64,000 bases of DNA, from contig NZ_FNBZ01000002.1 in assembly GCF_900102525.1 (NCBI RefSeq), positions 496,001 through 560,000 of the forward strand. The letters are read 5' to 3'. Positions 31,096 to 48,175 of this stretch are shown piece by piece (position 1 is the stretch's first letter; the number at the start of each line of letters is the position of its first letter). Below the pieces are notes generated by a model. It was not told where the DNA came from. It saw only the letters and a list, made by a program, of their open reading frames with translations, and did no database searches. The DNA is from Allobosea robiniae (GTDB taxonomy: Bacteria > Pseudomonadota > Alphaproteobacteria > Rhizobiales > Beijerinckiaceae). The translations under genes were made by a program, and so were the position numbers.

Positions 31096-31230
31096 TTGTC
31101 ATTCCGGGGCGTGCCGAAGGCGCGAACCCGGAACCCACGACTGGGTGAGACATTTTTTATGCCGCCTTGTAAGCAGCTCACCCAGTCGTGGGTTCCGGGT
31201 TCTTCGCTGCGCGAAGCCCCGGAATGACAA
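31096..31230. repeat. 135-bp cloverleaf palindrome (repeat A)
   Basis: Outer stem TTGTCATTCCGGGGC (31096-31110) pairs perfectly with 31216-31230. A 26-bp perfect inner stem is formed by 31124-31149 and 31177-31202, around a 27-nt loop. The 13-nt segments between stems do not pair with each other, but each folds on itself: GTGCC-GAA-GGCGC on the left and TTCGC-TGC-GCGAA on the right. It lies between the exporter permease and convergent pccB and could also end both transcripts. Confidence 0.85.
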
Positions 31231-45774: not shown

Positions 45775-45802
45775 AGCCGGCCCTTCGGGGCCGGCTTTTT
45801 TT
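45775..45802 (+). terminator. Rho-independent terminator of the TonB receptor gene
   Basis: AGCCGGCCC-TTCG-GGGCCGGCT, a 9-bp stem with a stable TTCG tetraloop and a seven-T run, 30 bases after the stop codon. Confidence 0.93.
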
Positions 45803-46619
45803 ATTCTTCGGCCTCTCCGGCCTGCCTTGCCAGGAGACGTGCCTTCTTCGGCCCCTCGACCAGCGACTTGAAGACGCCACGCAGCGTCCGGGCCTCCTGC
45901 TCGGTCATGTCGAGCCGGTGCAGGACATCGCGCAGGTTGGCGGTCATCACCGGTTTCTTGCCGGGCGGGAAGAAGCCGCAGAGATCGAGCTCGGCTTCGA
46001 GATAATCGAACATCGACAGGATCATCTCGCGCTTGGCCGGCGGCGAGGGGTTGTTCTCGCGGAAGGGCGGCTCGCCATGGGTCGTCTTGAACCATTCATA
46101 GCCGTTGAGCAGCACGGCCTGGGCGAGGTTCAGCGAGGCGAAGGCGGGATTGACCGGGAAGGTCAGGATGGCGTCGGCGAGGCTGATCTCCTCGTTGGTC
46201 AGGCCGATGCGCTCGCGTCCGAACAGGATGCCGACGCGCTCGCCGGAGCCGATGCGCCCGGCGACCTCGGGCATCGCTTCCGCCGGGGTCAGCACGCGCT
46301 TCATCTGGCCGCGCTCGCGGGCGGTCGTCGCCAACACATGGTTGAGATCGGCGATGGCCTCGGCGGCGCTGTCGAAGAGCCGGGCATTCTCCAGGATATG
46401 GGTGGCTCCGGAGGCGGCTGCGGTTGCGCCCTTCTTGAGGCCGCCGCCGCTCGGCCAGCCGTCGCGCGGGGCGACGAGGCGCATCTCGGAGAGGCCGAAA
46501 TTCGCCATGGCGCGGGCGCACATGCCGATATTCTCGGCGAGCTGCGGCTCGACCAGGATGACGACGGGGGCGGGGGCCTGGACGGCCGGGCGGGTGCGGT
46601 CGGTGCCGGAACCGGTCAT
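45801..46619 (-). CDS. TrmJ-like SpoU/TrmH family RNA methyltransferase
   Basis: 272 residues. SPOUT-fold 2'-O-methyltransferase with the three knot motifs: PVVILVEPQLAENIGMCARAM, ERVGILFGRERIGLTNEE and FPVNPAFASLNLAQAVLL. A C-terminal helical extension (MILSMFDYLEAELDLCGFF, LRDVLHRLDMTEQEARTLRG) is typical of TrmJ, which methylates position 32 of tRNAs. The ATG at 46619 is preferred, since the start at 46691 would place 24 extra codons up to the edge of repeat B. Converges on the TonB receptor. Confidence 0.88.
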   Translation of the reverse strand: MTGSGTDRTRPAVQAPAPVVILVEPQLAENIGMCARAMANFGLSEMRLVAPRDGWPSGGGLKKGATAAASGATHILENARLFDSAAEAIADLNHVLATTARERGQMKRVLTPAEAMPEVAGRIGSGERVGILFGRERIGLTNEEISLADAILTFPVNPAFASLNLAQAVLLNGYEWFKTTHGEPPFRENNPSPPAKREMILSMFDYLEAELDLCGFFPPGKKPVMTANLRDVLHRLDMTEQEARTLRGVFKSLVEGPKKARLLARQAGEAEE

Positions 46620-46692
46620 GGAAATCAGGTCTTGTCTTTGCGATGAGGCTTGCATCACGTCCCGGACGGCCGGGGTGATGGACAAGCTCATA

Positions 46693-46784
46693 CGTCATGC
46701 TCGCCCTTGTGGCGAGCATCCACGTCTTGAACCCACGCCCGACAAGCCAAGACGTGGATGGTCGGGACAAGCCCGACCATGACG
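46693..46784. repeat. 92-bp cloverleaf palindrome (repeat B)
   Basis: Two 37-nt arms (46693-46729 and 46748-46784) are inverted copies matching at 31 of 37 positions. Outer stem CGTCATG/CATGACG; inner stem CATCCACGTCTTG/CAAGACGTGGATG with an 18-nt loop. All six mismatches fall in the middle of the arms, where each side forms its own hairpin: GCTCGCC-CTTGT-GGCGAGC and GGTCGGG-ACAAG-CCCGACC. It lies between the RNA methyltransferase and dipeptidase genes. Confidence 0.88.
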
Positions 46785-46797
46785 AGATGTGGAGCGG

Positions 46798-47937
46798 TCA
46801 GCCCGTAGCCTTCTCGACCGCGCGCAGCACGCGCAGCATGTTGCCGCTGGCGAGCTTGGTGAGATTCTCCTCCGACCAGCCGCGACGGATCAGCTCCGCG
46901 ATCACCGACGGGAAGGTCGTGGTGTCTTCGAGCCCGTCCGGATTGATCCAGCCGAAGAAGTCCGAGCCGATGCCGACATGGTCATGGCCGATGCGCTTGG
47001 CGAGGTATTCGACATGGTCGCAATACTCCGACAGCGTCGCCTTCGGGCGCGGGCCGGACTTGGCGGCGATCTCGGCCTCGACCTTGTCATGGTCCACGCC
47101 TTCGGGGCTCTTGCCGTACTGGTCCTTGGCCGGGCGGTGCCAGTCGCGGGAAGCCTGGCTGATGAAATCCGGCACGAAGGTCGCCATCACGACGCCGCCA
47201 TTGCCGGCGACGCGGTCGAGCACGTCGTCGGGGACGTTGCGCGGGTGGTCGCAGAGCGTGAAGGCGTTCGAATGCGACCAGACCAGCGGGGCGCTGGAAA
47301 CGTCGAGCGCGTCATGCATCACCTTCGGCGCGACATGGGCGAGGTCGATCAGCATGCCGAGCTTGTTCATCCGGCGCAGAACGTCCTTGCCGAAATCGGT
47401 GAGGCCGTTATGGCGCGGGGCGTCGGTGGCGGAATCGCACCAGTCGGTGGTGTCGTTGTGGCAGAGCGTCATCAGGCGCACGCCGAGATCGTAATAGGCG
47501 TCGAGCGCGTCGAGCTCGCCATCGACCGCCGAGCCGTTCTCGATGGTCATGAACAGGGCGATGCGACCCTCGGCCTTGGCGGCCTCGACATCCGCGGCGG
47601 AAAGGCCTGGACGGAAGGCGTCGGCGTGGCGCTTGAGGATGCCGCGCATCAATGCGATCTGGGCGAGCGCGAAGCCGGCGGGATTGGGCTGCTTCGGCGG
47701 GACATAGGCCGCGAAGAACTGCGCCGCCATCTTGCCGGCCTGCATGCGCGGGATGTCGGTGTCGCCCTCGGCATGGACCTTGTCGAGGCCGTAGGTGGCG
47801 ACGTCGCCCTTCGCCTTGCCATCCTTGCGGATGACGTAGGGCAGGTCGTTATGGCCGTCGATCAGCGGGACGCGGTCGAGCAGGGCGAGCGCGGCGGCGT
47901 AGGCATTGTCCTGGACGGGCGGTTTGGCGAGGGCCAT
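46798..47937 (-). CDS. Membrane dipeptidase-type hydrolase (peptidase family M19)
   Basis: 379 residues. Zinc dipeptidase of the renal dipeptidase family, a TIM-barrel with metal ligands in VPLIDGHNDLPY (HxD), FMTIENGSAVDG (bridging Glu), LIDLAHVA and VWSHSNAF. The C-terminal Asp is in HVGIGSDFFGW. The family cleaves dipeptides, including those with a C-terminal D-residue. No signal peptide is visible, so it is probably cytoplasmic. The D-amino-acid dehydrogenase gene upstream on the same strand suggests a joint role in using D-residue peptides. Confidence 0.92.
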   Translation of the reverse strand: MALAKPPVQDNAYAAALALLDRVPLIDGHNDLPYVIRKDGKAKGDVATYGLDKVHAEGDTDIPRMQAGKMAAQFFAAYVPPKQPNPAGFALAQIALMRGILKRHADAFRPGLSAADVEAAKAEGRIALFMTIENGSAVDGELDALDAYYDLGVRLMTLCHNDTTDWCDSATDAPRHNGLTDFGKDVLRRMNKLGMLIDLAHVAPKVMHDALDVSSAPLVWSHSNAFTLCDHPRNVPDDVLDRVAGNGGVVMATFVPDFISQASRDWHRPAKDQYGKSPEGVDHDKVEAEIAAKSGPRPKATLSEYCDHVEYLAKRIGHDHVGIGSDFFGWINPDGLEDTTTFPSVIAELIRRGWSEENLTKLASGNMLRVLRAVEKATG

Positions 47938-48040: not shown

Positions 48041-48175
48041 TGTCATCCCGCACGCGCTGCGGCACGCAGTGCTGCTGCGCAGATGCGGGATCGTGCGACG
48101 AGAGGGCGCCTTTTCCGGGTGGCGGTCCCGTGTCTGCGCAGCAGCGTTGCACGCTGCGGCGCGCACGGGATGACA
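48041..48175. repeat. 135-bp cloverleaf palindrome (repeat C)
   Basis: Two 50-nt arms (48041-48090, 48126-48175) are inverted copies matching at 40 of 50 positions, around a 35-nt loop. The outer stem TGTCATCCCG is perfect, and the inner block GCTGCTGCGC is perfect. The divergent middle folds locally on both sides: GCGCTGCG-GCA-CGCAGTGC on the left and GCAGCGT-TGC-ACGCTGC on the right. A partial extra left arm (TTATCCCGCATGCGCTGC) sits at 48018-48035. Lies between the dipeptidase and dadA-like genes. Confidence 0.85.

Follow-up and report, generated by a model that had tools for sequence, protein, structure and literature searches.

The palindrome at positions 46693-46784 of the window, the 64,000-nt stretch of DNA analyzed here, raises the question of why the arms of a long inverted repeat should differ only in their central parts. 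The two arms (46693-46729 and 46748-46784), 37 nt each with 18 nt between them, are complementary at 31 of 37 positions (84%). The six mismatches are all central (arm positions 8, 12, 13, 19, 20 and 24), and each arm forms a perfect local 7-bp hairpin, at 46699-46717 on the left and at 46760-46778 on the right. This description agrees with the initial annotation, which took the mismatches for a compensatory pattern and proposed that a cloverleaf was the selected shape. On the basis of its sequence, its fold and 36 further copies in the host genome, we identify the 92-nt element as a heterodimer, two unlike CGTC-tagged REP units joined head to head; it probably acts at gene ends, with each tagged hairpin as the working unit and the unlike halves kept. 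Repeats of this kind are already known and their heterodimer arrangement was described in 2013, in a survey whose available text leaves two questions: why unlike CGTC hairpins pair, and whether the repeats act (Di Nocera et al. 2013, PMC3733652).

Along the plus strand the element reads CGTCAT, GCTCGCC-CTTGT-GGCGAGC, ATCCACGTCTTG, an 18-nt spacer, the inner complement, GGTCGGG-ACAAG-CCCGACC and ATGACG. Each unit carries a CGTC tag at one end. The left tag (46693-46696, plus strand) is followed by the hairpin ATGCTCGCC CTTGT GGCGAGCAT (46697-46719, plus strand), and the right tag (46781-46784, minus strand; GACG on the plus strand) adjoins a hairpin that reads ATGGTCGGG CTTGT CCCGACCAT on the minus strand (46758-46780). 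Both hairpins have a 5-nt loop and a 9-bp stem that starts with AT, the local 7-bp stems becoming 9 bp when the flanking AT/AT is included in the unit. CCA follows both stems (46720-46722 on the left) and can here also pair in an inner inverted repeat, the left half of which (ATCCACGTCTTG; 46718-46729, plus strand) and the right half with its tail (46748-46759, minus strand; the complement of the left inner stretch) enclose the variable spacer (46730-46747). Folded as single-stranded DNA, the element reached -31.5 kcal/mol (z = -7.7); its 200 dinucleotide-shuffled versions averaged -13.2 (sd 2.4), and none of them folded as well. The predicted minimum-energy structure of the window copy was the four-helix form drawn in the initial annotation, and its longest arm-to-arm run was 13. 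Rfam covariance models at the gathering score identified two tRNAs in the whole window and gave no match at the element.

A BLAST search of the host genome (5.28 Mb, 21 contigs) revealed 37 distinct places matching 79 to 92 of the 92 nt. The count covers dimers, repeated head to head, and the 36 besides the window copy bear out the earlier prediction that further copies would be present. All 37 were included in alignment A1; shorter matches were left out (L038, half an element; L039 and L040, other tagged dimers). The asymmetry between left and right hairpins was common to nearly all of the copies, with exceptions such as L034 and L037, which carry other stems. The six arm mismatches are therefore an inherited family trait and not changes that arose within the window copy.

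Of 41 searched genomes, a match at E 1e-8 was found in 25, comprising 24 of 25 genomes of the same genus (host included) and 1 of 16 from other families of the order. A stem pair identical to that of the host was present in records titled Bosea sp. WAO, Bosea sp. Tri-44, uncultured Bosea and Boseaceae bacterium, and also in the record 'Rhizobiales bacterium 2SD'. A match was carried by 7 of 72,556 plasmid records, so the element is not plasmid-borne as a rule. A single scan of species genomes, using a pattern that fixed the tags and tails and left the hairpin interiors free, matched at least 120 stretches and gave at least 84 dimers in at least 80 named records. The dimers among the matches listed were nearly all alphaproteobacterial by title. 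One was titled Verrucomicrobiales MAG (L167), and represents either a dimer of the same layout outside the Alphaproteobacteria or a wrongly binned contig. Eight of the 80 records listed are titled Bosea or Boseaceae, and counts were repeated without the Bosea-titled and 2SD records. Within the genus, spacer polarity was nearly constant (exception L127), but across genera it exceeded shuffles only weakly (1.59 versus a shuffle mean of 0.96 and maximum of 1.85); the idea that all genera inherited one ancestral polar dimer was therefore rejected.

Other palindromes were observed in the window and in related genomes. A large tagged palindrome, GTCATTCCGGGGCG...CCCCGGAATGAC (31098-31228), has arms with unlike interiors, lies in a gap called convergent and resembles a heterodimer from a different tagged family. 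A third one, GTCATCCCGCACGC...GCACGGGATGAC (48042-48174), is tagged GTCAT/ATGAC and occupies a unidirectional gap, and a similar one is present at L108 near 6743. At the site of copy L019 in L277 (genome G045), a CCCCTCTCCCC...GGGGAGAAGG palindrome encloses a GTCATTGCGAGG...CTCGCAAT palindrome, with one family nested in another.

Covariation was analyzed helix by helix in alignment A2, which holds 85 distinct genus copies (from 88, with the low-scoring L064, L113 and L039 left out; L001 is the window copy) and understates diversity, many copies from other genomes having been fetched for their resemblance to the window copy. The lateral hairpins showed the covariation that had been predicted for them: of their 14 pairs, 8 had two-sided changes (17 cells), made up of 4 of the 7 inner pairs of the left hairpin and 4 of the 7 of the right. 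Changes on both sides were found in 0 of 6 pairs of the outer stem, which behaves as a conserved sequence tag without compensatory pairs. The inner stem had two-sided changes in 2 of 12 pairs, and one of these two columns was unpaired in 79 of 85 copies; this leaves one credible double change and makes covariation almost absent from the inner repeat. Covariation thus draws a real distinction between the side hairpins, which covary, and the outer stem, which does not. Five whole-structure measures all exceeded 500 shuffles and six slid versions, in tests of a kind that relatedness inflates.

Departure from the majority sequence over the 85 copies followed the same anatomy: 1.8% at the left tag and 2.7% at the right (majority 98.2% and 97.3%), and 2.2-3.5% in the hairpin stems. 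The loops departed by 2.8-7.3%, the inner arms by about 5% and the spacer by 31%. With G-T counted as a pair, all 6 interior pairs formed on both sides in 76 of the 84 dimers among the matches listed, and every one of the 84 had at least 5 of 6 on either side. A homogeneous long palindrome that simply decayed, a reading already rejected in the initial annotation, would not yield side-hairpin covariation together with intact interior pairs. The compensatory pattern survived in part: the side hairpins covary across the family, but the six mismatches of the window copy are not six compensatory events. No excess of G-U over A-C was detected on the transcribed strand (8 G-U versus 10 A-C in the 49 unidirectional copies of the 85, inner-stem counts being set aside for faulty register), and an RNA role therefore gains no support from this measure.

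Homodimers were absent from the sets examined. Among the matches listed there were 0 in 84 dimers, compared with 17.2 expected by random pairing and never fewer than 5 in 20,000 shuffles; when the Bosea-titled and 2SD records were removed, the matches listed still gave 0 in 74 (18.6 expected). Counted per distinct stem pair (22, among the matches listed), 1.4 homodimers were expected and zero arose in 20% of shuffles. The heterodimer rule thus rests partly on related copies, because zero homodimers is not unusual for 22 distinct stem pairs. A looser search of 767 kb (the window, 80 listed loci and five host stretches), an overlapping set, also gave 0 homodimers among 88 dimers. None of 61 genus genomes, several of which are assembled as one contig, contained the exact homodimer of the commonest right-hand unit, although the exact unit with its tail occurs in 43 of the 85 A2 copies and is thus common. 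Over the 169 dimers compared, the longest arm-to-arm run was 17 bp, a maximum that we rejected as separate evidence, since any single stem difference yields about that length.

These dimers also bear on the proposal that the cloverleaf itself is selected, as a shape made up of an outer stem, two side hairpins and an inner stem. It is the minimum-energy fold of the window copy, as noted above, and 72 of the 85 genus copies favor it over the arm-to-arm rod in stability. Among the matches listed, the cloverleaf was better with DNA parameters in 4 of 8 Bosea-titled dimers, in both 2SD dimers and in 12 of the 74 from the remaining records. For those 74 the rod was better in 62 with DNA parameters and in 70 with RNA parameters. 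Heterodimers are thus general and the cloverleaf is not, since the 74 heterodimers found elsewhere among the matches listed favor it in 12 cases only. Given also an outer stem without a single compensatory pair and an inner stem with almost none, selection for the cloverleaf was not borne out and we consider it highly unlikely; the simpler unit is two separate REP hairpins.

A nuclease-based reason for the heterodimers has been proposed, namely protection from SbcCD (Di Nocera et al., PMC3733652). Of the 16 genus genomes tested, none has an SbcD above the family cut-off and 10 have weak part-matches, which weakens the published reason here. The host encodes a 414-aa protein weakly like Mre11/SbcD, adjoining a 1154-aa protein without an NCBIfam match (L316:3135-7843). 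We take the two to be possibly a YhaO/YhaN-type pair. Because the host has this Mre11-like protein, protection of an SbcCD type is still conceivable.

The element lies between two genes that are both on the minus strand. The upstream gene (46798-47937, minus strand; 379 aa) ends 13 nt before the element and has no NCBIfam match; we assume that its product is peptidase-M19-like (membrane dipeptidase). The downstream gene (45801-46691, minus strand) encodes a TrmJ/YjtD-family RNA methyltransferase (TIGR00050, 168.6 bits against a cut-off of 167.15), with a start at 46619 according to the codon-usage caller and at 46691 according to the longest frame. Gene orientations were taken from this purpose-made caller, which was trained on the window and also applied to other records, and they placed the 37 host copies in 19 convergent, 16 unidirectional and 0 divergent gaps, with 2 unassigned. 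Host background gaps of 60-600 bp from six stretches, element-bearing gaps included, comprised 10 convergent, 35 unidirectional and 20 divergent (P = 1e-4 for the lack of divergent gaps among the 35 assigned copies). In 30 of 35 host copies, no more than 25 nt separate the element from the closest stop codon upstream (median 13).

The same pattern was observed beyond the host. The 85 aligned genus copies occupied 49 unidirectional, 30 convergent and 0 divergent gaps (6 unassigned). The 84 dimers among the matches listed for the named records occupied 36 unidirectional, 29 convergent and 1 divergent, with 18 not assigned (8 without a called neighbor, 6 with a far one and 4 within a predicted gene). 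A divergent context was therefore seen in 1 of 66 assignable dimers among the matches listed, compared with a background of 123 unidirectional, 34 convergent and 80 divergent gaps of 80-500 bp without a dimer. Copies thus sit behind stop codons and almost never between divergent genes. This location agrees with that given for the published CGTC families (PMC3733652), and the absence between divergent genes could arise from promoter purging alone. An intrinsic transcription terminator would suit a position behind stop codons, often between convergent genes, but the window element has no T-run and no terminator-like match, and at one other site a separate hairpin with an A-rich side, terminator-like by eye, lies beyond the element; a terminator function is extremely improbable.

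Four close relatives were examined at twelve of the 37 sites, namely the window site and eleven on stretches with two or three copies, and 41 of the 48 site-genome pairs were covered. The same kind of dimer was present at 17 of these 41 orthologous places, a different palindrome at 18 (some of them other CGTC-tagged dimers, read by eye) and none at 6. In the 17 dimer pairs, differences from the host affected 7 of 204 tag positions (adjoining AT included), 49 of 643 hairpin positions (loops included), 44 of 408 inner-arm positions and 103 of 307 spacer positions; 4-fold sites in the flanking genes differed at 1892 of 8692 (22%). Spacers were scored in 15 of the 17 pairs. Five of these pairs, of which four belong to the window site, had spacers closer than any of 66 paralog pairs, and their copies therefore most likely stem from one insertion.

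Within these five best-matched pairs, both CGTC tags were unchanged, and stems and tags together differed at 0 of 200 positions, compared with 6 of 50 in the loops and 433 of 2377 flanking 4-fold sites (18%). The inner arms differed at 14 of 120, which counts further against selection for the cloverleaf. For the window site, the comparison of 0 of 160 positions in stems and tags with 325 of 1822 4-fold sites gives P of about 1e-13 if the pairs are taken as independent, which they are not, the host genome being the reference for all five pairs. Stems and tags thus change slowly at orthologous sites, and we infer that selection rather than homogenization is the cause. In the remaining 10 of 15 pairs the spacers resembled each other no more than paralog spacers do, and similarity of the arms could therefore also be maintained by re-insertion or gene conversion.

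This last result leads to the alternative of selfish remnants, copies that spread by a lost or trans-acting transposase, were tolerated only where they inserted behind genes, and have similar arms because they replace or convert one another. Spacers that differ as much as paralogs can (10 of 15 scored pairs) fit such an origin, as do the orthologous places that by eye hold a different palindrome in the same gap (18 of 41) or none (6 of 41), the lack of a Y1 transposase in 27 of 31 genus genomes, and one site at which the left and right hairpin interiors are swapped between two species with the spacer orientation kept (L106:2625-2716 versus L115:911-1003). Against it, sites are common to species with about 22% 4-fold divergence, and the spacer at the window site shows common descent, yet the stems and tags there are unchanged; conversion that spares 18 nt between two arms would also be awkward. 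The few sites inspected for empty counterparts yielded none that was clean and showed a target duplication; two candidate empty sites (for the G042 element at L127, and for the L002 site in G012 and G018) involve several extra bases beside the element and are not precise. We therefore regard selfish remnants as a possible but somewhat unlikely explanation.

The gaps themselves were compared for other inverted repeats. A score of at least 11 was reached by 14 of 24 alternates and, among the remaining gaps of unidirectional or convergent type, by 7 of 28 (P = 0.02, at a threshold set post hoc); for a score of at least 12 the counts were 11 of 24 and 6 of 28, respectively. These figures are suggestive only of sites that are hot spots for other palindromes. 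At the trmJ gap in L080 and L081 (genomes G021 and G023), the apparent remains of a left CGTC unit precede an unrelated palindrome of the CCCTCTCC type, and one palindrome may have replaced another within the same gap. Copy turnover at fixed sites had also been considered as a candidate, and was weakened by the recomputed 4-fold divergence.

A further alternative is a mobile REP or REPIN whose movement depends on a RAYT (TnpA-REP) cutting at the CGTC tag. A tag plus hairpin resembles the GTAG REPs, which are cleaved by RAYT (as cited in Di Nocera et al., PMC3733652), and REPINs have been proposed to replicate as inverted doublets (PMC3116915). The initial annotation had raised an association with a RAYT-type transposase. 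None was identified in the host genome, which by the Y1 family PF01797 has no dedicated transposase for the element, and 4 of 31 genus genomes were positive. PF01797 was absent from the copy-rich genomes G003, G007, G014 and G021 (first-look candidates) and present in the copy-rich G008 and G020. The available text of the 2013 survey likewise reports no transposase gene flanked by CGTC units (PMC3733652). A resident RAYT-type enzyme as the mover is thus already largely refuted, and RAYT-driven mobility at the CGTC tag is very improbable.

We return to the preferred reading, a gene-end heterodimer of two CGTC-tagged units. Each REP unit would be an independent tag plus hairpin, and pairs of units would have settled in gaps just behind genes and been kept there, with the tags and hairpin stems constrained while the middle drifts. 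The tagged hairpin may be recognized in single-stranded DNA, or it may form the 3' end of a transcript from a flanking gene and there act as a brake or a protective end. The gene-end location speaks for the transcript role, as does the report of Bradyrhizobium palindromes in 3'-UTR transcripts (PMC5082802). A DNA role, with a single-strand hairpin read by gyrase or another protein, is equally possible. Pairs of unlike hairpins would be kept behind genes as two-way end elements, and two different hairpins would be retained because identical halves form a perfect stem of at least 32 bp, unstable as DNA or cut as duplex RNA. A bolder form of this proposal is that the dimers are two-way gene-end devices of Alphaproteobacteria and not junk, with selection on tags and hairpin stems site by site, a putative non-RAYT protein that reads the tag on the hairpin, a strict ban on identical halves, and other palindromes that may take their place behind a given gene. 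We put this forward tentatively and consider it unlikely in full.

The genus can be cultured, and the homodimer, orthologous-site and divergent-gap counts make both questions left in 2013 directly testable in it. What is new here is the count of covarying pairs for each helix, the finding that stems and tags are unchanged at orthologous sites, and the lack of homodimers in the sets examined. A search of the literature on Bosea REPs and CGTC-tagged repeats, judged by titles and abstract openings, gave no other paper on this element, and the genus is not named in the available text of the 2013 CGTC-REP account (PMC3733652).

Three known systems provide a comparison, each as characterized in the available text of its source. 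REPINs (Bertels and Rainey 2011, PMC3116915) share with the host element an inverted doublet, conserved ends, a variable spacer, an extragenic position and a length of roughly 80 nt. In contrast, REPINs have symmetrical ends in one long hairpin, GTAG-type REPs and a RAYT, whereas the host element has unlike ends that form no such hairpin, a CGTC tag in place of GTAG, and no RAYT in its genome. Br-REP1 and Br-REP2 of Bradyrhizobium (PMC5082802) are also alphaproteobacterial palindromic repeats, located in 3'-UTRs and seen in transcripts; their sequences differ (CCGGAATCTCGAGATTCCGG and an ATTCCGGG type), and the Br-REP1 element consists of three stem-loops. The closest match is to the CGTC-tagged REPs (Di Nocera et al. 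2013, PMC3733652), which are defined by a CGTC tag, an 8-9-bp stem beginning AT, a 4-5-nt loop and mostly a CCA tail, and which form mostly head-to-head dimers. Heterodimers prevail in two of the four families and homodimers in one, CGTC-1; homodimers are the sole form in two other species' families (PMC3733652). The stem and loop lengths of the host element fit family 3 or 4, an assignment made by lengths and not by consensus sequences (PMC3733652). The host element and the CGTC-REPs have in common the tag, a 9-bp stem with AT in positions one and two, a 5-nt loop, the CCA tail, head-to-head dimers with heterodimers common, structured spacers, a position behind genes and no dedicated transposase. 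The host family differs in that nearly all of its copies are one fixed pair of unlike hairpins, to which an inner inverted repeat has been added.
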